This document shows, piece after piece, positions 3,115 to 21,856 of a stretch of DNA of 64,000 nt. The DNA is from Opitutia bacterium ISCC 52 (GTDB lineage: Bacteria > Verrucomicrobiota > Verrucomicrobiia > Opitutales > UBA2995), in the NCBI GenBank assembly GCA_014529675.2, contig CP076040.1:3491894-3555893 (forward strand). The letters are read 5' to 3'. A model generated the notes under the pieces. That model was not told the origin of the DNA. It searched no databases and was given only the letters and a program-made list of their open reading frames with translations. Each line of letters starts with the position of its first letter. Position 1 is the first letter of the stretch. Position numbers and translations under genes: made by a program.

Positions 3115-4242
3115 ATGCCAGAATCCCTCAACATCGCGCTCCTGTGTCATCCTACCATCGGTGGTAGTGGCATTCTCGCGACTGAGCTCGGTCACAAACT
3201 GGCGGAATGGGGACACCAGGTTTACGTGGTATCTGAGCGTCCACCTCATCGTTTGAAAAACGATCGTCCAGGAATCCACTTCTGTGAATCGACACCGGTT
3301 GAATTTCCTCTTTTCACCAGCCCAGATCACACCCTGCCCTTGGCCACCCGTATTGCTGAGGTTTGCAGAAATCATAAGATCGATGTAGTGCATGCACACT
3401 ATGCAATCCCACACACAGCAGCAGCCTGGATAGCAAAGGAATTGATTGGCGAAGCCGCACCCCCAATCATCACAACCTTGCATGGCACGGACATTGTTTA
3501 TCTGGGAGCAATGCCGGAGTATCGGTCCCTGCTTCAACACGTCCTTGAAGCTTCAGATCTGGTCACTTGCGTTTCCAATAATCTCAAAGAGCGTACTCTG
3601 GACCTGTTTGAGCTGAAGCAGGACATCGAAGTCATTCCGAATTTCTATGAGCCCAGACCGGTGACGGATACACGAGAGAACATTCGAGCATCACTGGGTG
3701 TGGGAGATGAACCACTTGCTCTCCACGCATCGAATCTAAGAACCATTAAGCGCATAGACTTGCTGCTGGATGCAGTGAAGGTGGCGATTGCCAAAGCAAC
3801 TTTCAAGATGGTCATTCTGGCAGGTGCTGATCCCGCAAAAGTTAAACAACTCATCGCGGATCGGGAATTACAAGATCATGTAATCGTAGCCGATGATGTA
3901 TTTGACATAGACAACTACTACGCCGCTGCAGACTTCACTGTTTACTCCTCGGAGTATGAAAGCTTCTGCCTGGGCATATTGGAAGGCATGCGCTATGGGT
4001 TACCCAGCGCCTCGTTTGATGTGGGTGGAATTCCAGAAGTTGTGAAGGATCCTTCAACGGGATTCATGGCACCCTTTGGGGACTCAGAAAAACTTGGGCA
4101 CGCGATTGCCACGCTAGCTGACAATCCCGAGCTAAGAAAACAAATGGGATCCGCGGCGCAAGACCGAGCCATAACTTCTTTTTCGGCCGATGCCGTCGTC
4201 AAATCTTACCTGGAAGCTTACCACCAGGTCATGAAGCATTAA
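3115..4242 (+). CDS. bshA: BshA, N-acetyl-alpha-D-glucosaminyl L-malate synthase
   Basis: 375 aa, normal for BshA. It is a GT4 family, GT-B fold glycosyltransferase that moves GlcNAc from UDP-GlcNAc to L-malate, the first step of bacillithiol synthesis. The N-terminal loop HPTIGGSGILATELG (residues 12-26), the stretch HAHYAIPHTAAA (about 93-104) and TTLHGTDIVYLG (120-131) match the BshA pattern closely. The C-terminal half carries the GT4 E-x7-E nucleotide-sugar motif in the stretch SSEYESFCLGILEGMRYGLP. It begins 6 bases after bshB1. The next gene starts about 10-64 bases downstream, depending on its start, and looks unrelated. Confidence 0.93.
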   Translation: MPESLNIALLCHPTIGGSGILATELGHKLAEWGHQVYVVSERPPHRLKNDRPGIHFCESTPVEFPLFTSPDHTLPLATRIAEVCRNHKIDVVHAHYAIPHTAAAWIAKELIGEAAPPIITTLHGTDIVYLGAMPEYRSLLQHVLEASDLVTCVSNNLKERTLDLFELKQDIEVIPNFYEPRPVTDTRENIRASLGVGDEPLALHASNLRTIKRIDLLLDAVKVAIAKATFKMVILAGADPAKVKQLIADRELQDHVIVADDVFDIDNYYAAADFTVYSSEYESFCLGILEGMRYGLPSASFDVGGIPEVVKDPSTGFMAPFGDSEKLGHAIATLADNPELRKQMGSAAQDRAITSFSADAVVKSYLEAYHQVMKH

Positions 4243-4251
4243 TAACTATTC

Positions 4252-4887
4252 ATGATTCGGAAGCACACTTGCCACCAACGTATCATGTCACCATTATTCA
4301 AAATTATGAAAGCACTATTACCCCTAACTCTAATTACCCTCCTAAGCACTTTAGTTTCTTATGCTGAAACCAAAGTTCCATCCGTATACTGGCAGATCAC
4401 AACCGCGGTTTTAGCGGCACAAGAATCCGATCGAGAGAACGCAACTGTAATGGGTTACCGTAGCGATGGCACTCTCGCTGTGCTTCGCGAAGGCAGCAAT
4501 GACCTGATTTGCCTGGCTGACGATCCAAAGAAAAAGAACTTCAGCGTAGCCTGCTACCACAAAAGCCTGGAACCCTTCATGGCTCGTGCCAGAGCACTTC
4601 GCAAAGAAGGCAAATCTGAAAAAGAAATTTTTGATATTCGGGAGGAAGAGATAAAAGCCGGAAAACTTGAAATGCCTGAGCGAGCCCTGCTGGCTATTCT
4701 AACAGGAAAGGTAAATGAGGAGACCCAGGAAATTGAAAACAAGTTTCTGCGCTGGGTGTTTTATATCCCTTTTGCTACCCCAGAAAGCACTGGGCTTCCA
4801 CTGGCGCCCCAAATTCCAGGTGGCCCGTGGATCATGAATCCTGGCACCCATAGAGCTCACATTATGATCACGCCTCCAAAAAATTAA
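4252..4887 (+). CDS. Exported protein of unknown function
   Basis: The frame allows starts at 4252, 4285 and 4306. The ATG at 4306 gives the cleanest signal peptide: MKALLPLTLITLLSTLVSYA, with cleavage before ETK, leaving a mature protein of about 170 aa. The mature part is mixed polar with a Lys/Glu-rich helix in the middle (residues about 105-135 of the long form) and a Pro/Gly-rich end reading PQIPGGPWIMNPGTHRAHIMITPP. I do not recognise a family with certainty. The end resembles small exported proteins that may bind ligands, but no catalytic motif is evident. It sits between bshA and a DUF2911 gene on the same strand, 45 bases before the latter, so the two may be co-transcribed. Confidence 0.75.
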   Translation: MIRKHTCHQRIMSPLFKIMKALLPLTLITLLSTLVSYAETKVPSVYWQITTAVLAAQESDRENATVMGYRSDGTLAVLREGSNDLICLADDPKKKNFSVACYHKSLEPFMARARALRKEGKSEKEIFDIREEEIKAGKLEMPERALLAILTGKVNEETQEIENKFLRWVFYIPFATPESTGLPLAPQIPGGPWIMNPGTHRAHIMITPPKN

Positions 4888-4931
4888 TTTAAAGCCATTT
4901 CAACCTCAAACAATCATCACATACATCATCT

Positions 4932-5477
4932 ATGAAATCACTTATCAGAATCAGTGCCGTTGCTCTGGCTATATTATTGGCCACGAGCTCTTTCAGCTTC
5001 GCTCAAAAACGTGGAAACGGAAAGGCACGCCCAAGCCCCAATGCTGAAGTCAGTCAAACCATTGGAACTACCGTTATATCCATTACCTATGGCCGCCCGG
5101 GACTCAAAGGACGTAAAATCGAAGACATGGTTCCCGATGGAAAGGTCTGGCGGACCGGAGCCAACGAATCGACAGTCATTACTCTATCTGACGATATAAT
5201 GATTGGGGATGCATCTGTGAAGGCGGGTACTTACTCCATGTATACAAAACCAAACGCCGATGACAAAACTATGGATATTATAATCAATTCCAAGTTGTCG
5301 TGGGGAACTCAATACGACGAATCTAAAGATGTCGTCCGAGCAACAGCTAAGCTAACAAGAGAGAATCATCCTAATGAATGGTTCGCTATTTACTTTACTA
5401 ATCTAAGTAATAACTCAGCGGACATGAAGCTTCACTGGGGTGATGCCATCGCGGTTATCCCAATCAGCGCAAAGTAA
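4932..5477 (+). CDS. DUF2911 domain protein, exported
   Basis: 181 aa with a signal peptide (MKSLIRISAVALAILLATSS, cleavage near FAQ). The mature part is a DUF2911 domain: the signature TVISITYGRPGLKGRKI, then VPDGKVWRTGANESTVI, GTYSMYTKP and a C-terminal LHWG stretch are as expected for this family, which is common in Bacteroidetes and Verrucomicrobia. The domain's function is not known. The protein should be periplasmic. A rho-independent terminator lies just after the stop (5501-5532). Confidence 0.88.
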   Translation: MKSLIRISAVALAILLATSSFSFAQKRGNGKARPSPNAEVSQTIGTTVISITYGRPGLKGRKIEDMVPDGKVWRTGANESTVITLSDDIMIGDASVKAGTYSMYTKPNADDKTMDIIINSKLSWGTQYDESKDVVRATAKLTRENHPNEWFAIYFTNLSNNSADMKLHWGDAIAVIPISAK

Positions 5478-5500
5478 ATTGATCGATATCAAAATTCTCC

Positions 5501-5532
5501 AAAGAGGCAGTCATTCGGCTGTCTCTTTTTTT
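5501..5532 (+). terminator. Rho-independent terminator after the DUF2911 gene
   Basis: The arms AAAGAGGCAG (5501-5510) and CTGTCTCTTT (5519-5528) pair over ten positions with one G-U, around an 8-base loop, followed by a T run to 5532. It overlaps the last codons of the convergent minus-strand gene that ends at 5511. The A-rich left flank means it could also stop transcription from that side. Confidence 0.85.
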
Positions 5533-7100
5533 GTGATCGTGCGCTTAAAAAATCTAATGGCCTCACGGGAATATTTTTCAGACTCCCACTGAAACTCCTG
5601 GCTGTTTCTTCCTCCATGTGGAGTACGTGGCCAAGAAGTCTCTACCTCATAACCCAAGCCTTTTAGGCTATCAGCGAAAGATCGCGCTATATCCCACCGA
5701 GTATCCAAGGAACCACACATGACAAGGAAAGGAACATTCTTCGATCCATCCACAGCCTTCAAGCCGGCAGCGCTGCCCACACGTTGGTTGAACATACCAT
5801 GCAGACGCTCCGGAACCTGACTAAGGTCTTCGGTTTCTTGAAGATAAGTTTCTGGGTCTGCGACTTCTCCAATTGCTTCGATTAGTAGATGGCCATCGGG
5901 TGTAGTCCAAGTGCCCGATGCACAGGGAGCGGCAGCTAAGACGCCTTCCGGATTTCTAAGCGCATAACGATGTGAAAATTGGCCACCTCGAGAGTAGCCA
6001 GTGATGAGAATCTTTTCTTCAAGATCATATTTCGAACGGACATCCTTGAGCACAGCTTCAAGGAACGGACCTTCCCCAAGATCGGGGAATCGGCTCGCCT
6101 GAAAATCTTCATTGGAAAAGCTCGGAGAAATGACAATAGCCTCGAGACCTTGGCGATTGGCTTCCTGACGTGCAGCCTTGGCGAGGAAGTGAGTCCTGCC
6201 ATTCCCATTGCCTCCGTGCACAGTTACTAGGGGCCAATAGGACTTCCGAGGATCGAAATCCATGGGCAAGCGGACAAAGTACTCTCGCTTCGATCCATCA
6301 TAATCCAAGGTCATGCGAATGGGATCCTCACCGTTTGCTTGGTTGAGCAATTCGATCATCTCATCGGCCCGGTCGAGATTCACCATACCAGCGGCGGAAT
6401 CGAGAATCCTCTGGTAGTTAGTTTCCGCACCTTCTTGTAACGCATGCGCCATGAGCTTGAGGTTGTTTTCCCTGCAAAAGGCAATAAAGGCGGGAGTCAG
6501 ATGCTCGAGTCGGTATTCGATCAATTGAGGATTAAAGTCCAATACTCGTTCTAAACCAGCCACATCAACCGCATTCATTTTTAGAGGAATGACAGGATCC
6601 AGGCTTCGCAGCTCTCTAGCCTTCTCATCATTGGAGAACCAAAAGAAGCAGTCGTCCTCATAACCAAGCTCATAAATCAGTTTTAGCAGCTCTCGCAGAT
6701 CAGCGCCCTTCACATCAAAATAGATTTTGATCCTGCCACTGAAGCTCTTTAGAAAGGCATCCAGACGAGGGACTTTCTCACCAGAGAATTCAGAACTGAA
6801 CCAACTTCCAGCATCAAGGGAGTCGATATAGGATGAATCCCGCTCCACAACCGGACCCGTACCATTGGTTGTCCGATCGAGTGTCTTATCGTGAATGACA
6901 TACATCACTCCATCCTGACTGGTTCGAACGTCTACCTCGACATAGTCAACGCGTAGCTGAACACACTTCTGCGCGGCGGCGAAGGTATTCTCAGGAGCCA
7001 AGTGGTTAGCACCTCGATGGGCTACAATCTCCAGTTCTCTACTAAATGAACCAGCTGTGAAAGCCAGAAGACATAAACCGATCAGCGTAATCTTTCTCAT
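5511..7100 (-). CDS. Glycerophosphodiester phosphodiesterase-esterase fusion, exported
   Basis: 529 aa with a signal peptide (residues 1-20). Residues about 23-255 form a GDPD TIM barrel: the motifs HRG at 28-30, PENT at 36-39, EVDVR at 55-59 and HD at 70-71 supply the catalytic His pair and the metal acidic residues. This domain hydrolyses glycerophosphodiesters to glycerol-3-phosphate plus an alcohol. Residues about 262-525 form an alpha/beta-hydrolase domain like polyhydroxybutyrate-depolymerase-type esterases: oxyanion HGG at 295-297, nucleophile elbow GYSRGG with Ser370, then an Asp in CGSLDTRWD and a His in TPHGG. GDPDs are usually about 250-300 aa, so this is a genuine two-domain fusion with no frame break. 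The start overlaps the end of the upstream hydrolase by 4 bases (7097-7100), so the two are coupled. Periplasmic breakdown of phospholipid- or ester-linked products is inferred. Confidence 0.85.
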   Translation of the reverse strand: MRKITLIGLCLLAFTAGSFSRELEIVAHRGANHLAPENTFAAAQKCVQLRVDYVEVDVRTSQDGVMYVIHDKTLDRTTNGTGPVVERDSSYIDSLDAGSWFSSEFSGEKVPRLDAFLKSFSGRIKIYFDVKGADLRELLKLIYELGYEDDCFFWFSNDEKARELRSLDPVIPLKMNAVDVAGLERVLDFNPQLIEYRLEHLTPAFIAFCRENNLKLMAHALQEGAETNYQRILDSAAGMVNLDRADEMIELLNQANGEDPIRMTLDYDGSKREYFVRLPMDFDPRKSYWPLVTVHGGNGNGRTHFLAKAARQEANRQGLEAIVISPSFSNEDFQASRFPDLGEGPFLEAVLKDVRSKYDLEEKILITGYSRGGQFSHRYALRNPEGVLAAAPCASGTWTTPDGHLLIEAIGEVADPETYLQETEDLSQVPERLHGMFNQRVGSAAGLKAVDGSKNVPFLVMCGSLDTRWDIARSFADSLKGLGYEVETSWPRTPHGGRNSQEFQWESEKYSREAIRFFKRTITKKETAE

Positions 7101-7975
7101 AATGTTTCCTTAAAGAATTCTACCATGGAAGCCATCGATTGTTCTCCACGTCCTTTGAACCCATGGCCCCCTTCCTTGTAGTAAATCTGAGATACATCCG
7201 CGCCGACCTCTTTCATTGCTTCGAAAAGGAGCTCAGATTGAAGCCAGGGAACGGTAGCGTCGTCTTCACAATGAATAAGCAAGATGGGTGGATCCTCTTT
7301 ATCCACATGTGTGATTACGGATGCATGGATCCAATCTTTGCCATCCGGTGAAAAAGAAGGCCCTACCCACTTTCCATTCGAGATCACCTTAGTCTCCACA
7401 TTGGGTTGCAGCGCGATCTGCTTCTCATCGGTAAAACGGCTCACAAAATCAAAGACACCAGCATAGGCAACGGCCGCTTGAATACGACTGGAGTAATCAG
7501 GATGCCCACCCTCACCTTCGAACGATTCCATACCACCGGTCACCGCCAAAAGTCCGGCCAGGGTTCCTCCCGCCGAACGTCCCATGGCACCTATGCGCTC
7601 GGGATCTATGGAATATTGTTCAGCTATTTTGCGAACAAACCTGACCGCAGCCTTCGTGTCTGCAACTGTATCCTTGTACTGATGATTGGGTCGTCCACGA
7701 TAAGCTATGAGCGCAGCCGCCAAACCCTGTTCAGCCAAATATTCAGCAAAGGGTCGAAACTTCTGCCCATCCTGGGCGTTGAAGCCTCCGCCCTGTATCA
7801 CCAGGATACAAGGGACGGGTTCACTCGCTGTTTCCGGAACGAACAAATCAAGCGTAATCCCGCCACTTACTTCTGAATAAACGAGGCCCTTGTGAACGGC
7901 AAACGGTGCCTCCTCGGCGACCAATCCAAGGCCCCCAAGAAAAAGTGAGATAATGATAGGGATCACGAATTTCAT
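7097..7975 (-). CDS. Exported alpha/beta hydrolase (BD-FAE/esterase-lipase type)
   Basis: 292 aa with a signal peptide (MKFVIPIIISLFLGGLGLVA). The alpha/beta-hydrolase fold of the esterase/lipase group is shown by the oxyanion stretch IQGGGF (60-65), the nucleophile elbow GRSAGG with Ser134, and the His in YKEGGHGF near the C-terminus. Family members are carboxylesterases, often acting on acetyl or feruloyl groups of glycans; the true substrate cannot be read. The stop overlaps the start of the GDPD-esterase fusion by 4 bases, so both are likely made from one mRNA and act together in the periplasm. Confidence 0.85.
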   Translation of the reverse strand: MKFVIPIIISLFLGGLGLVAEEAPFAVHKGLVYSEVSGGITLDLFVPETASEPVPCILVIQGGGFNAQDGQKFRPFAEYLAEQGLAAALIAYRGRPNHQYKDTVADTKAAVRFVRKIAEQYSIDPERIGAMGRSAGGTLAGLLAVTGGMESFEGEGGHPDYSSRIQAAVAYAGVFDFVSRFTDEKQIALQPNVETKVISNGKWVGPSFSPDGKDWIHASVITHVDKEDPPILLIHCEDDATVPWLQSELLFEAMKEVGADVSQIYYKEGGHGFKGRGEQSMASMVEFFKETL

Positions 7976-8004: not shown

Positions 8005-9423
8005 CTACTCCTCATTCGCAAGACGCTTGTAGCGATTCGCGGTAGAAAGGGTCATATTCCGCACGGGAGCATTGAAGGTGGCTTCACCAACAATATACAA
8101 AGCATCTGACATGAGAATCTTGGCTTCCTTGTTGTCTGGCTGAAGGCGAATCACATGTTGTGCAAGCTGGGCCGCACCTAATGCATCGCCACCTTTCAGG
8201 GCGTTCTTTGCCTTACCAAACAATACGCCAGCGCCACCCACTAGATCGGCTATACGCTGAGACTGTTGTACAGGAGATTCGCGGTGCAGGGTCATTACAT
8301 TCCCATCGAACCAACCTAGATCCTGAGCATAAATATCGCGAATAGTACCTTCCACGGTACCATAGTAATCGCCCAGGTAATCGAGTTTAGCATATTTCTC
8401 AGGCAGTGCCGCGTATTCAACCAACTCATCAGGGGTCATGTAATTGGACGCACCTTCAATGGTTTTATCGTATACGTATTTAATCGCATCGCGGTAGTTT
8501 GTAAGCACTTCGAGTGCATCATTGAGAATCGGTGGAGTATGACCTCCGACCACATGCTTAGGATTCTCTTGCACCATGGCATCGATACTTTTGATCCAAT
8601 CCCGGGTCGACCGTCGAGCGGTACCACGCAGAGGATAGACATTAGGCCAGGATTGGTAAAAATTATCGCCCGCAAACACGATCCTCTTATCCGGATACCA
8701 AACGTATAGTTGATCGTCCGTTTCACCAGGTGCCTTCACCAGCTCGAGCTTGATGCCTGCAATTTCGATTACTTTCCGGTCCTCGGAAAAAGTGTGCGTT
8801 GGATCAATGCCTGCCCTGGGTCCGCTGACTCCACCACGCTGACGTGTAGCACCACTCCGGGCTGCTTGCTCGCCTCCTCCAAATGCGTTTCCCCGAAGGC
8901 GATCATAGGGAGGGATGGCGATGCCCACGCTGATTTGTTGTTCCGGATTCAAATCAAATCCCTGGGAATTGGCCCTGCGAATCCCGCCTGAAAAACCGAC
9001 CTCTTCATTGCGATGCTGCTCTGACCCAAAGTTGTCACGGGCCCAGATCTGCATATCACTTCCCTCTTCGTAAAATGCTCCTGCACCGCCCGTGTGATCA
9101 AAGTGAGCATGGGTGTAGATCATCGCCAAAACGGGCTTTTTGGTAATTTTCTCAAATTCGGCCCGAGCTCGCTGAGCGAGAGGAACTTGTTGTCCCGGGT
9201 CGATGATGATCACTCCGTCATCCCCGACTATCATCGTGTTGGTTGAAGCCGAGTAGCCAACAGCCGTATAGACGTTCTCAGCCACTTTAATAATTTGCGG
9301 GCCAAGGATTTTATTCCGGTCCAGCAAACGCTGAGTGGCAGGACTCTGGGCCTGCAAATTGATAAAAAGAAGCGGGCAAATGAATGTACCGATTAGAAAA
9401 AAGAAACGAGACTTGTTGAACAT
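8005..9423 (-). CDS. MBL-fold hydrolase related to alkyl sulfatase SdsA1/BDS1, C-terminal domain missing
   Basis: 472 aa with a signal peptide. The metallo-beta-lactamase fold shows the zinc motif THAHFDH (104-110), AGDNFYQSWPN and GGHTPP. The middle part reads like the alkyl-sulfatase dimerisation domain: QDLGWFDGNVMTLHRESP, and near the end a helical LAQHVIRLQP segment of the kind that binds long alkyl sulfates. Known SdsA1/BDS1 enzymes are about 650 aa and end in an SCP2-like domain; here the protein stops before it. A Gly/Arg-rich insert (FGGGEQAARSGATRQRGG) lies within the catalytic domain. The family cleaves alkyl sulfate esters, but a different ester substrate is possible. It has its own gene space, 29 bases from the next minus-strand gene. 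Confidence 0.82.
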   Translation of the reverse strand: MFNKSRFFFLIGTFICPLLFINLQAQSPATQRLLDRNKILGPQIIKVAENVYTAVGYSASTNTMIVGDDGVIIIDPGQQVPLAQRARAEFEKITKKPVLAMIYTHAHFDHTGGAGAFYEEGSDMQIWARDNFGSEQHRNEEVGFSGGIRRANSQGFDLNPEQQISVGIAIPPYDRLRGNAFGGGEQAARSGATRQRGGVSGPRAGIDPTHTFSEDRKVIEIAGIKLELVKAPGETDDQLYVWYPDKRIVFAGDNFYQSWPNVYPLRGTARRSTRDWIKSIDAMVQENPKHVVGGHTPPILNDALEVLTNYRDAIKYVYDKTIEGASNYMTPDELVEYAALPEKYAKLDYLGDYYGTVEGTIRDIYAQDLGWFDGNVMTLHRESPVQQSQRIADLVGGAGVLFGKAKNALKGGDALGAAQLAQHVIRLQPDNKEAKILMSDALYIVGEATFNAPVRNMTLSTANRYKRLANEE

Positions 9424-9515: not shown

Positions 9516-10034
9516 TCAGACGAATTCGCCTTCAGGAAACAACTCAATAAAACGGGTCATCTTTTCGAAGGCCAATTGACTGGCTGCCTTCATCTCCCGT
9601 CGACCAATTTCAAGGGCCCGAATCTTTGGATTAGGGACTCTAGCCTGATAGTACCTAAAATTCCGATGAAGCTCGAACTTCGCTCGAGCGACTTGCTCTT
9701 CAACCGTAGCTTCGTGCATCCATAATCTATTCTCACCTGAACCAGGAAGAAAGAATGCAATATGTAAGTGCCCCGCTCCTTTCCCAAAGCAATCGATTCT
9801 TAGAACCTCTTCCTCTAGCATGAATAAGGAACAGGCTGGTCCTCTTCCAAGCCTCAATTCCTTATTATAGACTTGGATATATACCCCCTCACAAACGGGG
9901 ATATCCTCCCGATCCATGCGAATAGAATAATCGGGCCGCATCTTTCCCATGTTGCGATCAATGCCCCAGGACAACGATTCTGAGAGAGATTGTTTCGATG
10001 AGAGGAAACGCAGGAAGCGGGTTAGCTTAGCCAT
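9516..10034 (-). CDS. Conserved-looking cytosolic protein, unknown function
   Basis: 172 aa, no signal peptide and no membrane segment. The sequence is rich in charged and aromatic residues: GRGPACSLFMLEEEVLRIDCFG in the middle, GHLHIAF, and a helical C-terminal half ending MTRFIELFPEGEFV. I recognise no family. The even base composition of the frame and the absence of a good alternative frame support a real gene. It lies between cysK and the SdsA1-like gene, all on the minus strand, with its own flanks. Confidence 0.65.
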   Translation of the reverse strand: MAKLTRFLRFLSSKQSLSESLSWGIDRNMGKMRPDYSIRMDREDIPVCEGVYIQVYNKELRLGRGPACSLFMLEEEVLRIDCFGKGAGHLHIAFFLPGSGENRLWMHEATVEEQVARAKFELHRNFRYYQARVPNPKIRALEIGRREMKAASQLAFEKMTRFIELFPEGEFV

Positions 10035-16890: not shown

Positions 16891-17198
16891 TTCCAGGCGA
16901 ATATAAATTTTCCGAACCCGATGCGCTTCTAACCGGGAATCCCGATCTTGAGACCCTAACCGTTCAAGTCAGCAATACAGGTGACCGGCCCGTTCAGGTG
17001 GGGAGTCATTTTCACTTCTACGAAGTGAACGAAGGCCTGGAATTTGACCGAGAATCCTCGAAGGGTTTCCGCCTGAATATCGCCGCGGGCACAGCCGTGC
17101 GATTTGAGCCTGGTGACATACGGGAAGTCGAGCTGGTCGCCTTGGCTGGCAAACGCGAAGTCCATGGACTTAACAACAAAGTAGACGGACAGTTATGA
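16887..17198 (+). CDS. ureB: Urease beta subunit
   Basis: 103 aa. It starts MIPGEY, and continues with [38 protein letters not shown] and [16 protein letters not shown], the classic beta-subunit sequence. It forms the (alpha-beta-gamma)3 urease core. It overlaps ureA by 4 bases and ureC by 4 bases, so the three structural genes are translationally coupled. Confidence 0.97.
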
Positions 17199-18928
17199 GC
17201 TTAGAATTTACACGAAGACAATATGCCGAAATGTTCGGACCTACCGTGGGTGATCAAGTACGCCTTGCCGACACAGAGCTCTTCATTGAGGTCGAGAAGG
17301 ACCTGATTGCCGAAGCGGCAGGCTACGGAAACGAAGTAAAGTTTGGAGGCGGCAAAGTCATCCGAGATGGCATGGGACAATCACCGCTTGCCACCGGAAA
17401 AGACTGCCTCGATCTAGTCCTGACCAATGCAACCATCATTGATCCCATTCTCGGTATTATCAAAGCCGACATCGGAGTTAAAGATGGGCGCATTTCTGGT
17501 ATCGGACACGCAGGCAATCCACTCATTCAATCCGGGATCGCGGATGGCATGGTCATAGGTGCTGGCACGGAGGTGATCGCTGCCGAAGGGCATATTGTAA
17601 CTGCTGGAGGATTTGATTCCCACATTCACTTTATTTGCCCGCAGCAAATCGACGAAGCCTTGGCCAGTGGAGTAACTACCATGACTGGCGGTGGAACAGG
17701 ACCAGCAACCGGCACTAATGCAACCACCTGCACCCCTGGACCCTGGAATATTCAGAAGATGCTGGAATCGGCAGACGCCTTTCCTATGAACCTCGGTTTT
17801 ATGGGCAAAGGGAATTCGTCCAACTTGGATGCTCTGCGCGAACAAGTGGCAGCGGGAGCCATGGGGTTGAAACTTCACGAAGACTGGGGAACCACCCCCA
17901 GTGCAATCGACCACTGCCTCAGCGTGGCGGACGAGATGGATGTTCAAGTCGCCATCCATACGGATACTTTGAACGAGTCGGGCTTCGTCGAAACGACCAT
18001 CAAAGCATTTAAAGACCGCGTGATTCACACCTTCCACTCGGAAGGTGCCGGAGGAGGTCATGCTCCAGACATTTTAAAAGTCTGCGGAGAAGCGAATGTG
18101 CTCCCCTCCTCTACCAATCCAACACGTCCCTTTACAGTTAACACCATCGACGAGCATTTAGATATGCTCATGGTGTGTCATCATCTGGATTCAAAGATCC
18201 CCGAAGACGTGGCGTTTGCTGAATCAAGGATTCGACCTCAGACCATCGCAGCCGAAGACATTCTGCACGACCGAGGAGCCATTTCCATCATGTCAAGCGA
18301 TAGCCAAGCCATGGGGCGCGTGGGTGAAGTCTTGATACGCACCTGGCAAACAGCGGACAAAATGAAGAAGCAGTTTGGAAAGCTGGAGTCCGATGTGCAT
18401 ACAGCGGCCGATAACTTTCGTGTGCTTCGCTATATTGCCAAATACACGATTAATCCATCTATCGCCTGCGGAACGACCGCCGATGTAGGTAGTCTTGAAG
18501 TGGGGAAGCTGGCTGACATCGTTGTCTTCAAACCAGCCTTCTTCGGAGTGAAGCCGGAGCTGGTACTCAAAGGTGGCATGATCGCTCTGGCTAACATGGG
18601 CGATCCCAATGCTTCCATCCCCACACCACAACCGATGTATTACCGACCTCAATTTGCTGCTTTTGGAAAGGCAAAGCACCGAACTTCTATCAGCTTTGTT
18701 AGCCAGGCTGCCGTGGACGCAGGTGTGGCAGATTCTCTCCGATTGGAGAAGATCATCCGCCCAGTAGCAAACACTCGAAAGATCTCTAAGCATGACATGG
18801 TTATGAATGACTATCTTCCAAACATTGATGTCGATCCAGAGACCTACACTGTGACGGCAGATGGCGAGGAGCTGACTTGCGAACCGGCAACCGAGCTTCC
18901 GATGGCGCAACGTTACTTTCTATTCTAA
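17195..18928 (+). CDS. ureC: Urease alpha subunit (catalytic)
   Basis: 577 aa, slightly longer than the common 567-572. All nickel and catalytic residues are present in the expected places: His143 and His145 (DSHIHF), the carbamylated Lys226 (GLKLHEDWG), His255 (VAIHTD), His281 (TFHSEG), the flap Cys-His at VCHHLD (328-329) and Asp369 ([10 protein letters not shown]). These are the Klebsiella UreC positions shifted by nine. The C-terminus QRYFLF is typical. The enzyme should be active if nickel is inserted. Stop and ureE start are one base apart. Confidence 0.98.
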
Positions 18929-18929
18929 A

Positions 18930-19424
18930 ATGCATCTAGTTACCGAAGCGTTAAACCCGATTCCACATCATCACGATCATGTATCAATCCCCGTGGACAG
19001 GCATAAACTGGCCCGGAAACGCTGGCGTGGAAAAGCAGCTGATGACACGGACTTTGGTTTCGATGTAGCTGAAGCCCTGAACCACGGAGACTGCGTTCTG
19101 GTAGAAGCCCATACGGCCTATGTCATAGAACAAGCACCCGAACCCTGTTTCCTGGTACCTATGGGCGAAGGGCAACAAGCGGCATGGCTAGGCTGGATGA
19201 TCGGCAACCTTCATTTCAAAGCCGCATTTTCGGACAAAGGAATTCTAGTACAGGACGATTTGGCTGTGGAGCAGATGCTCGAGCGTGAATCCATAGCCTT
19301 CGAACGTGTCACCCGTGTATTTCAACCAAGCAAGTCTGGCGGTCACTCTCACGATCACGATCATGATCATGATCACGGACATAGCCATGGGCACGATCAT
19401 TCGAATCACCATCATCACCATTAA
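18930..19424 (+). CDS. ureE: Urease accessory protein UreE (nickel chaperone) with His-rich tail
   Basis: 164 aa. The N-terminal peptide-binding domain is short and has extra histidines (PHHHDHVSIPVDRHKLARKRW); the metal-binding domain follows, with GEGQQAAWLGWMIGNLHF and DDLAVEQMLE as usual. The last 30 residues are almost all His, Asp and Gly (HSHDHDHDHDHGHSH, then HHHHH), encoded by a run of near-identical CAC/GAT codons. Such tails store or deliver nickel to UreG. The stop codon is directly followed by the ureF ATG. Confidence 0.93.
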   Translation: MHLVTEALNPIPHHHDHVSIPVDRHKLARKRWRGKAADDTDFGFDVAEALNHGDCVLVEAHTAYVIEQAPEPCFLVPMGEGQQAAWLGWMIGNLHFKAAFSDKGILVQDDLAVEQMLERESIAFERVTRVFQPSKSGGHSHDHDHDHDHGHSHGHDHSNHHHHH

Positions 19425-20132
19425 ATGACTCGCGATGCTTCATCTGACGAGCAGTGGGTCGCTTCACTGCTTCAGGTTTCCGATCCTCTATTTCCCACGG
19501 GAGGTTATGCTCACTCATTGGGACTAGAGCAATGGGCCGCAAGCTGCGGCTACCAAAACGGAGAGGACCTGACTCAATTTTTTATGGACCACGCCGGCCC
19601 TGCATTGGCGCGCCTGGAACTACCCTACCTTCGCTTATCCAGAGACCTTTTGATTGGGACTGATACTGAGGGGCTCATCGAATTAGAACAAGAGATCGAT
19701 GCCTGGAAATGGGCATCAGAAATTCGCGAAGCGAGTCTAGCGCAAGGACGAGGTCGCCTTCGACTCCTCAAGAAACTCTGGGATGATCCAAGGGTGGAAA
19801 ATTACCGAATGCTATTGGCCGAACAAAACGTATTTGGTCATCATCTTGTGGTAACAGCATTGCAGTTTGAAATCCTCAAAGTGCCAGAACGAGCTGGTCT
19901 CATGGCCTACGGGTATCAAAATCTGGCCAACTTTGTTTCCGCCTCCATTAAACTCTTACGCATCGGTCCGGAATCTGCACAAGCAGCTCTACACGCTGGA
20001 CTGGATCAGTTGCCCACCTGGGTCGATCAATCGCTCACCATTAACCGCGAGGACGCTGGATGGTTCGCACCCGCTTACGACATTGCCTGCGCCCAACATG
20101 CCACCGCTTTCTCACGACTTTTTATTTCTTAA
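19425..20132 (+). CDS. ureF: Urease accessory protein UreF
   Basis: 235 aa, all-helical. The start is right after the ureE stop. DPLFPTGGYAHSLGLEQWAASC is the conserved N-terminal UreF motif, and REASLAQGRGRLRLL and the Gly/Tyr stretch MAYGYQNLANFVSASIKLLRIG follow as expected. UreF binds UreD and UreG and gates nickel delivery to the apo-urease. The 222 bases after it are noncoding before ureG resumes. Confidence 0.93.
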   Translation: MTRDASSDEQWVASLLQVSDPLFPTGGYAHSLGLEQWAASCGYQNGEDLTQFFMDHAGPALARLELPYLRLSRDLLIGTDTEGLIELEQEIDAWKWASEIREASLAQGRGRLRLLKKLWDDPRVENYRMLLAEQNVFGHHLVVTALQFEILKVPERAGLMAYGYQNLANFVSASIKLLRIGPESAQAALHAGLDQLPTWVDQSLTINREDAGWFAPAYDIACAQHATAFSRLFIS

Positions 20133-20354
20133 TTTTGTTTAACCGCAGAAAATGCAGATGACTGCAAAAACCTAACTAAAGTGATCCAACAGCGACGCCA
20201 TTTTGAACAAAGAGGAAACGAAAATAACGAAGAAAAACTGAAAGCAACAATCCATAGAACCTTTGTTACCTTCGTTTTCTTGAGCGAAAGCGACTGTTCA
20301 AAACAATTAAGCGATAAAATTCCTAAGAACATATTTACTCATCCTTTTTAATCC
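20133..20354 (+). other. Noncoding insert between ureF and ureG with imperfect inverted repeat
   Basis: All other urease genes here overlap or abut, but 222 AT-rich bases separate ureF and ureG. They contain an imperfect inverted repeat: 20212-20232 and 20261-20281, 16 of 21 positions complementary. They also contain a stretch ACCGCAGAAAATGCAGATGACTGCA near 20141-20165 that resembles a shorter piece near 10074 (ACCGCAGATGAAGAA). It looks like an eroded intergenic repeat element. No protein frame here is convincing. Confidence 0.5.
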
Positions 20355-20996
20355 ATGTCTGATACAAATTCATCTCCACGTCCTGTCCGCGTTGGCATCG
20401 GAGGCCCGGTTGGTTCCGGCAAGACAATGCTCCTCCTTCGCCTCACAGAAGTACTTAACAAACGATTCAGCCTCGTCGCGATTACCAACGACATTTATAC
20501 CAAGGAGGACGCCGAATTCCTGGTAAAAAATAGCCCACTTGAAGCCGGGAGAGTCCTCGGAGTAGAAACAGGGGGCTGTCCGCACACGGCCATTCGCGAC
20601 GACACGAGTATGAACGAAGCAGCGATTGATAACCTGCTGCTACAGCATCCCGACGCTCAAGTCGTTCTCTTAGAAAGCGGTGGCGACAATCTATCGGCTA
20701 CGTTCTCACCGGAGCTGGTGGATGCGTTCATTTATGTAATTGATGTTGCGGAGGGCGATAAGATCCCCCGCAAAGGTGGCCCTGCCATTCGATTTTCAGA
20801 TCTACTCATTATCAACAAGACCGAGCTAGCCCCTTATGTGGGTGCGGATCTCGATGTCATGGCACGTGACTCAAAGAAGATGCGCGATGAACGTCCCTTT
20901 CTCCTTTGCGATCTAAAAAGCCGAAAGGGGCTGGATGATGTCTTGGCCTGGCTCGAGAAGGAGTGTTTCTTTCCACTGACTCCCAAAGCTGGTTGA
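20355..20996 (+). CDS. ureG: Urease accessory GTPase UreG
   Basis: 213 aa. It is a SIMIBI-class GTPase: P-loop GGPVGSGKT (16-24), the metal-binding Cys-Pro-His in [31 protein letters not shown] and the [13 protein letters not shown] guanine-specificity stretch. It hydrolyses GTP to drive nickel transfer into urease. The stop codon overlaps the ureD start by one base (TGATG). Confidence 0.97.
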
Positions 20997-21856
20997 TGCC
21001 CGAAACGATCACAGAGAATCAGCCTGCCAAGCGACCCGCCGTATCCGGAGGTGTTCGCTTAGCTTATATAGCTGATCCAAAGGGATCCACTCTCAAGGAA
21101 CAATGGGTTCGCCCTCCCCTTCATATAGCCAAAACCTACCATGACAAAGGCTGGGCCATTAACTTGCTCACGAGTCCGACCGCAGGATTACTGGAAGGAG
21201 ATCATTTGGAGATCGATTGCAAGGTGGAAGCTGGGGCCAAGGCTGCTATGATAAGTCCGGCTGCTTGCCGCGTGCACACTATGGCCGACGGCGAAGCCAC
21301 CATCCAACAACATTACCAGCTTGGAGAAGATGCTGCTCTGGATGTCTGGCCAGCACCCTTGGTGCTACAATCGGCTTCAAGACTGAGGCAATTCACCAGG
21401 GTAGATCTAGAGGCTAGCAGCAGGCTGCTTCTCACAGAGATCATTTCTCCAGGACGTGCAAGCTACGGTGAGTCCTTCGAGTTTAAATCCTGGCGCTCAA
21501 AGCTACGTATCTACCGATCGGGTACGCTAATGGTCTACGAGAACTTCAACGTTGACCCAAAGGCAGGTGACGTCGCCGATTGGCGGACCCGCTTTCCTCA
21601 TGGTCCTTATGTGAGTCTCTATTTCTTGACCTCAAAGCCGGTAAAAGAATTGATCGAGCCTCTCAACCAACTATCCAATAAAGAGGTAGCCATTGGAGCA
21701 AGTTCCCTCAGGACAGGTGGGCTAGGCATCAAAGCACTGGCTCAAGATGGACTGGCCTTAAGAAAGTCGGTGCTGAACATACGGGAATTACTCGTCCAGC
21801 ATTCAGAGATCGAGTTCCCCAGCACTCTCCAAAGAGCACAAACATTCTTCTATTAA
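20996..21856 (+). CDS. ureD: Urease accessory protein UreD (UreH)
   Basis: I choose the ATG at 20996 because it overlaps the ureG stop by one base; the open frame continues back to 20963. The 286-aa protein has the UreD pattern: LAYIADPKGSTLKEQWVRPPLHI, LLTSPTAGLLEGDHLEID, KAAMISPAACRVHTMADGEA and LLLTEIISPGRASYGESFEFKSW. UreD docks UreF-UreG onto the apo-urease. In the usual bacterial order ureD leads the operon; here it closes it. No urea transporter or nickel permease gene follows. Confidence 0.93.
   Translation: MPETITENQPAKRPAVSGGVRLAYIADPKGSTLKEQWVRPPLHIAKTYHDKGWAINLLTSPTAGLLEGDHLEIDCKVEAGAKAAMISPAACRVHTMADGEATIQQHYQLGEDAALDVWPAPLVLQSASRLRQFTRVDLEASSRLLLTEIISPGRASYGESFEFKSWRSKLRIYRSGTLMVYENFNVDPKAGDVADWRTRFPHGPYVSLYFLTSKPVKELIEPLNQLSNKEVAIGASSLRTGGLGIKALAQDGLALRKSVLNIRELLVQHSEIEFPSTLQRAQTFFY

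Follow-up and report, generated by a model that had tools for sequence, protein, structure and literature searches.

Could a single secreted protein remove an ester group and also cut a phosphodiester, and if so, on what kind of substrate? This question is raised by a gene in a 64,000-nucleotide stretch of DNA (contig CP076040.1, positions 3,491,894 to 3,555,893) from Opitutia bacterium ISCC 52 (Verrucomicrobiota), the whole of which is referred to here as the window. The open reading frame (ORF) at 5511-7100 on the minus strand encodes a protein of 529 amino acids (aa), in which a predicted leader is followed by a GDPD domain and then by an alpha/beta-hydrolase domain with the features of an esterase. 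Our tentative first choice, held at somewhat less than even confidence, is that the protein is a secreted two-headed scavenging hydrolase that arose by the recent fusion of two genes. The fusion and its parts are as follows.

5511-7100, minus strand: gene for the GDPD/esterase fusion (signal peptide, GDPD and an alpha/beta-hydrolase similar to CE1 and polyhydroxybutyrate (PHB) esterases), delimited by ORF, Pfam/NCBIfam, phmmer and a structural model; loci L006/L035 and L007 carry the same fusion
7041-7100, minus strand: predicted Sec-type signal peptide, residues 1-20, from a hydrophobic N-terminus judged by eye and a helix at residues 2-16 of the model
6333-7037, minus strand: GDPD domain, residues 22-256 approximately, with H28, R29, E37, N38, E55, D57, H70, D129 and K131
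5529-6323, minus strand: alpha/beta-hydrolase domain, residues 260-524 approximately, with S370, D466 and H495

An initial annotation of this DNA, made from the sequence letters, had given the coordinates of the ORF correctly and had proposed that a complete GDPD barrel and a complete alpha/beta-hydrolase are joined on one chain. Both domains are indeed complete. The residues were compared in an alignment (A3) of 30 rows, comprising 21 GDPD rows and 12 esterase rows, with 3 fused rows in both counts; the weaker GDPD loci (L026-L031, L033 and L034) and distant esterase-like frames (L018 and L032) were excluded. An AlphaFold2 model built from the 30-row alignment has a mean pLDDT of 90.1.

The N-terminal half matches Pfam PF03009 with 82.1 bits (cut-off 23.6) at residues 28-131, where the alignment covers only positions 1-107 of the 244 profile positions; the completeness of this half was therefore judged from phmmer and the model. 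By phmmer, residues 24-247 match the Agrobacterium tumefaciens GDPD (PDB 1zcc, also PF03009), and residues 22-260 of the model superpose on it as a full-length TIM-barrel (Z = 32.2, root mean square deviation = 1.8, 238 aligned residues, 39% identity). The GDPD motifs are usually named as two catalytic His residues, HR...EN and ExD, and the corresponding residues of the fusion (H28, R29, E37, N38, E55, D57 and H70), together with K131, are the same in all 21 GDPD rows. The third carboxylate ligand of the metal in GDPDs is usually Glu. The residue at this position in the fusion is Asp129, and the 21 rows have Asp in 7, Glu in 13 and His in 1; three of the seven Asp rows belong outside the GDPD subfamily of the fusion. 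Thus, the likeness to 1zcc extends over the whole GDPD half and its motifs, whereas the fusion adds a leader peptide and an esterase to the single domain of 1zcc and has Asp rather than Glu as the third ligand. In a pairwise alignment, the stretch FPWTVD of 2pz0 corresponds to MAHALQ in the fusion, and since W-T is lacking there, the pocket may be unlike that of standard GDPDs; W-T is missing from 1zcc as well.

In the C-terminal half, the triad of Ser370, Asp466 and His495 is kept in all 12 aligned esterase rows, that of the window included, and the nucleophilic-elbow serine had been numbered correctly in the initial annotation. The nearest folds to residues 257-525 of the model are the CE1-type feruloyl esterases of Bacteroides, Bacint_04212 (5vol, Z = 22.4) and BT_4077 (7xrt, Z = 22.2). 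Staphylococcus aureus FphF (Z = 21.2) and S-formylglutathione hydrolases (Z of approximately 20.7) come next, together spanning 20.6-21.2, and because these values follow so closely, we place the esterase half in the superfamily rather than in a single family. A profile of the 12 esterase rows matched, among solved proteins, LC-Est1C (3wyd), poly(aspartic acid) hydrolase-1 (9o7u) and feruloyl esterases, with E values of 1e-9 to 1e-11. The chains of 5vol, 7xrt, 3wyd and 9o7u share approximately 21% identity with the fusion esterase and, unlike the fusion, contain no GDPD. The matches to Abhydrolase_1 (21.3 bits, cut-off 25.8), NF005757 (26.4 bits, cut-off 332) and NF050058 (dePHA type 1; 24.7 bits, cut-off 150) were below their cut-offs; the esterase half may act like a PHB depolymerase, yet it is not filed as one. 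Taken together, the folds and profile matches point more to a predicted activity on acyl, aryl or acetyl esters of glycans or small molecules.

The fused architecture is not an artefact of assembly or frame, a possibility that was rejected since two other genomes of the genus (G005 and G001) carry the identical architecture and dN/dS is low. In the comparison with G005, the GDPD half of the window protein has a dN/dS of 0.071 and the esterase half one of 0.070, the latter being a rough value because dS of the esterase half (1.7) is near saturation, and the linker remains in frame. These values indicate that purifying selection acts on both halves. From its N-terminus, the protein is very probably exported, and the conserved residues and the model make it highly likely that both predicted heads are catalytically active.

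Where did the two halves meet? Within the genus, the fusion occurs in three of six genomes, i.e., the window genome, G005 (86% identity) and G001 (64% identity). G004 has the GDPD alone (262 aa, 69% identity), G002 has the esterase alone (309 aa, 54% identity), and in G003 neither half was found at E 1e-40. G002 and G004 are represented by fragmented draft assemblies with a completeness of 75% and 88%, respectively, so the other half may be unsampled in them. Genome-by-genome searches covered the phylum Verrucomicrobiota. Among 372 genomes of the order, 6 had a match at E 1e-40 with no further fusion, and the sole match outside the genus was a lone GDPD in G329; among 387 genomes of the phylum, 178 matched the fusion profile at 1e-12, and among the matches listed only that of the window spans both halves. 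Up to three candidates per genome were scored in the order and phylum searches, so other fusions could be missed there. When only the esterase half was searched for, 4 of the 387 phylum genomes had a match at 1e-12, the window's genome included.

Close relatives of the esterase were also sought in 84,980 species genomes, by a scan that relies on short exact peptides of such relatives, and seven loci were returned: one fused (L035), five standalone (L036, L037 and three from Bryobacterales, L039-L041), and L038, from an Opitutales metagenome-assembled genome (JAJFLS010000651.1), in which the protein at 3860-5899 joins the esterase to a C-terminal region resembling DUF4185 below threshold. None of the 364 matching plasmid records covers 80% of the fusion protein. 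Trees of the halves are compatible with a single fusion event but do not demonstrate it (p-AU of 0.26 for GDPD; support of 36/0.2 for the esterase). Because each half is found without the other outside the genus (G329; L038-L041), fusion is favored over later splitting, and from these comparisons, the fusion is most likely young and lineage-specific, joining two genes that are also found singly.

In the phylum, the GDPD domain has also been joined to other partners. Among seven long GDPD frames that were scanned (L033, L060, L063, L066, L068, L071 and L075), five carry another domain (type I phosphodiesterase, LamG, the membrane domain GPDPase_memb, CN_hydrolase or histidine phosphatase), and no alpha/beta-hydrolase partner was found in the seven. 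The frame L063 1-2223 (G226) combines a type I phosphodiesterase/nucleotide pyrophosphatase with GDPD, i.e., two phosphodiesterase folds per chain, and L071 622-2223 (G121) is a CN_hydrolase-GDPD fusion; GDPD frames of 530-585 aa are present in several other genomes of that family (f41). A further GDPD paralogue in the window genome (L003/L004, G000:C1:1941934-1942250) has a broken frame and is likely a pseudogene or a sequencing error.

The genes around the fusion bear on its possible substrate. They are listed below with the adjoining hairpins; terminator-like hairpins number 7 in the region against 4.9 expected, so they are not enriched.

7097-7975, minus strand: predicted exported esterase of the BD-FAE family (PF20434), directly upstream of the fusion, with S134, D239 and H271 assigned from motifs
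7097-7100, minus strand: ATGA overlap of the stop codon of this esterase and the start codon of the fusion
8005-9423, minus strand: metallo-beta-lactamase (MBL)-fold protein of 472 aa with a leader and an Alkyl_sulf_dimr domain, 29 nucleotides upstream of the BD-FAE gene
9516-10034, minus strand: protein of 172 aa that matches nothing in Pfam or NCBIfam and whose gene may be the first of the unit, with a conserved counterpart in L035
10142-10174, minus strand: terminator-like hairpin (15 pairs, T tail) between the unit and an upstream cysK-like gene
5501-5528, plus strand: terminator-like hairpin (12 pairs) of a convergent DUF2911 gene, overlapping the 3' end of the fusion

The gene at 7097-7975 encodes 292 aa with a hydrophobic leader that resembles a Sec signal by eye. 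The initial annotation had recognized an exported alpha/beta-hydrolase overlapping the fusion by 4 bases, which agrees with our analysis: the Pfam match to PF20434 scores 145 bits (cut-off 26.8), and the triad motifs GRSAGG, DDATVP and GGHGF are present. It had been described as the next gene; on the minus strand, it is the preceding one. A Shine-Dalgarno-like AAGGA lies ahead of the ATG of the fusion, likewise in the relative L035, and dN/dS for the BD-FAE protein is 0.18 between the window and G005. The best solved match of this protein is 6nkf, named Lip_vut4. In NCBIfam, it comes closest to esterase LipQ (80 bits, far below the cut-off of 700), followed by hormone-sensitive lipases; Phospholipase/Carboxylesterase of Pfam is matched below threshold (19.5 bits against 23). 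Its predicted substrate class is thus ambiguous, being BD-FAE by Pfam and Lip_vut4 by the best solved match. The characterized member of the family is a bifunctional feruloyl/acetyl xylan esterase whose nearest homologues are located in xylan loci, according to excerpts of the report (PMC8165983). The family is therefore shared with the gene studied here, whereas the setting differs: the direct neighbors of this gene are the MBL gene and the GDPD fusion, and the wider context was judged from 20 further ORFs of the window. The window genome has 14 matches of the BD-FAE type.

The MBL gene matches PF00753 (83.1 bits) and PF14863 (Alkyl_sulf_dimr, 109.5 bits) and contains the HxHxDH motif. Residues 28-464 approximately match sec-alkylsulfatase (2yhe), YjcS (4pdx) and SdsA1 (2cfu) with E values of 1e-33 to 1e-37, so that the MBL core and the dimerization domain are shared with these alkylsulfatases. 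SdsA1-type alkylsulfatases have a C-terminal third domain. The three enzymes are 640-668 aa long, whereas the MBL protein ends at 472 aa with its last Pfam match at 330-464, and this third domain is absent from it. The MBL protein may bring a predicted organosulfate-type activity to the unit, which does not settle the substrate. The 172-aa protein is 94% identical in G005. From the spacing and strand of these genes, the fusion and the BD-FAE gene are highly likely to share one operon, and the unit as a whole, with the order (172-aa ORF)-MBL-BD-FAE esterase-GDPD/esterase fusion, is probably an operon of secreted hydrolases. Promoter-like sites in the region number 2 against 5.2 expected. Phosphate regulation was considered and dropped, since the Pho-box pattern occurs 8 times against 5.5 expected and 21 of 100 shuffles reach 8.

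In G005, the MBL, BD-FAE and fusion genes stand in the same order as in the window, and the overlap is kept. In G001, the MBL gene (75% identity) lies upstream of the fusion at a distance of approximately 1 kb without a BD-FAE gene between them. The overlap with a second esterase proposed in the initial annotation therefore stands for the window and G005 and fails for G001, i.e., an ATGA-type overlap is present in two of three fusion loci, while an upstream MBL orthologue is present in all three. Between the MBL gene and the fusion in G001 (L080 8217-9050, G001:C48), small ORFs resemble by eye a toxin-antitoxin pair of the MntA/HepT type. Elsewhere on the same contig (L080 1578-2200, G001:C48), a BD-FAE frame is broken in two, and its neighbor resembles the ThuA protein of G004 (ThuA by Pfam), whose gene adjoins a BD-FAE relative there (L048, 64% identity). 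An orthologous sulfatase (78% identity) is found next to the fusion in G001 and next to the standalone esterase gene of G002, but not on the same side. The 4.8-Mb window genome has an extreme sulfatase load, with at least 150 matches to PF00884 (best 150 of 312 candidates scored), and sulfatase neighbors as a clue to a sulfated substrate were dropped because sulfatases lie near many genes of this genome. A urease cluster (alpha subunit, UreE and UreD) is located at 17195-21856 of the window.

Outside the genus, the closest relative of the GDPD is that of G329 (L057), from another family of the order. This GDPD gene is followed, after approximately 220 bases and on the same strand, by a gene for a 332-aa alpha/beta-hydrolase with a leader, which matches PAF-AH_p_II with 32.7 bits (cut-off 20) at residues 68-106 only. 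As judged from sequence, this pairing is the best hint from outside the genus that GDPDs of this group may work with an ester hydrolase, and it leans to lipid. In G040 (L018), a GDPD gene and an esterase gene are likewise neighbors; the esterase is distant, with a long low-complexity N-terminus, and the hint is weak.

What, then, would the protein do? Outside the cytoplasm, the esterase head, together with the BD-FAE partner, would strip acyl or aryl ester groups, and the GDPD head would cut a phosphodiester by metal-dependent chemistry with His28 and His70, yielding a phosphomonoester. If the substrate is a glycerophosphodiester, the product would be sn-glycerol-3-phosphate, a supply of phosphorus and carbon. 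Fusion would ensure co-export of the two activities at a 1:1 ratio and keep them close, so that acylated phosphodiester debris could be stripped and cut together. This scavenging role is suggested by the folds, the catalytic residues, the conservation of the fusion under low dN/dS, the operon-like spacing and the MBL orthologue ahead of all three fusion genes; the pairing of GDPD with an ester hydrolase in G329 is counted in its favor, and the origin by fusion is supported by halves that occur alone in G004, in G002 and outside the genus, as parents would. That both heads work on one substrate class has, in our estimate, slightly less than an even chance. Several observations weigh against the scavenging role as stated. 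The arrangement of the domains in the model is uncertain (pTM of 0.61), and the BD-FAE gene is not beside the fusion in G001. The esterase is usually alone, six of the seven loci being without GDPD and one having the DUF4185-like partner, so GDPD is not its regular partner; conversely, GDPD fuses with many domains in the phylum, and an extra partner need not mean a joint pathway. The G329 neighbor was spotted by reading, the query proteins having failed to detect it, and its adjacency may be due to chance in genomes rich in such hydrolases. Pho-box-like matches are at chance level, with none upstream of the unit. A more specific version, in which one chain acts as a self-contained, genus-specific exoenzyme on a single acylated phosphodiester, removing its ester group before cutting its phosphodiester bond, is improbable in our view. 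Its candidate substrates would be acyl-decorated glycosyl- or glycerol-phosphate units of algal or bacterial surface polymers, from which sulfatase-rich Verrucomicrobiota could obtain phosphorus; we know of no single enzyme for this substrate class.

A lipid substrate was the proposal of the initial annotation: the esterase head or heads would deacylate lysophospholipids, and the GDPD head would release glycerol-3-phosphate from the glycerophosphodiester so formed. In phospholipid recycling, the second step is usually carried out by a GDPD, and the PAF-AH_p_II match in G329, the relation of the MBL neighbor to alkylsulfatases, and the Lip_vut4, LipQ, hormone-sensitive lipase and sub-threshold phospholipase matches of the BD-FAE protein point the same way. 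An extracellular GlpQ is known in Pseudomonas, as excerpts of PMC5438359 describe. The fused esterase itself, however, most resembles the feruloyl, PHB-type and poly(aspartic acid) esterases and matches no phospholipase family at E 0.001 (Pfam and NCBIfam); the characterized BD-FAE member is a carbohydrate esterase in the excerpts of PMC8165983; and the replacement of FPWTVD by MAHALQ may give a different pocket, although 1zcc also lacks W-T. We therefore find the lipid proposal unsupported and an enzyme of lipid headgroups unlikely, though we count lipid as one of two plausible substrates. The deacylate-then-cut chemistry is possible, and its two steps on one molecule are something that we infer. 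A different explanation detaches the two heads from each other, i.e., two unrelated activities share a leader in a fusion fixed by chance or for co-export and act on separate substrates. Each half stands alone in congeners, the esterase has the DUF4185-like partner in L038, GDPD elsewhere accompanies CN_hydrolase, LamG, histidine phosphatase, type I phosphodiesterase or membrane domains, and the trees leave room for this, but the retention of the fusion, the purifying selection on both halves and the GDPD/esterase gene neighborhood in G329 argue otherwise; we give it a minor share of our confidence. It is very improbable that either half has lost its catalysis and is kept as a binding or docking module. 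Asp in place of Glu as the third metal ligand and the missing W-T stretch could be read in this way, but in both halves, every other catalytic residue that was checked is the same in all aligned rows, Asp occupies the third-ligand place in 7 of 21 GDPD rows, 3 of them outside the subfamily, and no sign of a dead half was found in the aligned rows and the model. A domain without catalytic residues had been named in the initial annotation as grounds for doubt; Asp129 is the only such residue that differs.

Compared with known systems, the secreted two-headed hydrolase that we tentatively prefer resembles the extracellular GlpQ enzymes (Bacillus 5t91; Pseudomonas GlpQI and GlpQII, in excerpts of PMC5438359), which are exported GDPDs with a possible role in phosphorus supply, whereas the Bacillus GlpQ chain (5t91) has no esterase domain. 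GDPDs are commonly joined to a second domain, as in the GDPD-like SMaseD/PLD proteins with added domains, for which excerpts of the report (PMC6299612) describe no alpha/beta-hydrolase partner. Outside the genus, the order and phylum genomes, the species-genome scan and the plasmid records yielded no fusion of a GDPD with an alpha/beta-hydrolase. The initial annotation had left room for the fusion being already well described; in the literature, no GDPD and alpha/beta-hydrolase fusion appears in titles or abstracts among the matches listed. The components all come from known families or superfamilies, and their combination is probably new, young and narrow in distribution.

The interest of this protein is modest until its substrate is established. 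If both heads share a substrate, one protein would carry out ester removal and phosphodiester cleavage, which elsewhere would need separate proteins, and an acylated phosphodiester would be indicated as a source of phosphorus for such bacteria. In a Verrucomicrobiaceae isolate, fucoidan degradation has been described as limited by phosphate (PMC12872454, in excerpts). If the heads are unrelated, the gene would serve well as a case of recent domain fusion in which sister genomes show each half unfused.

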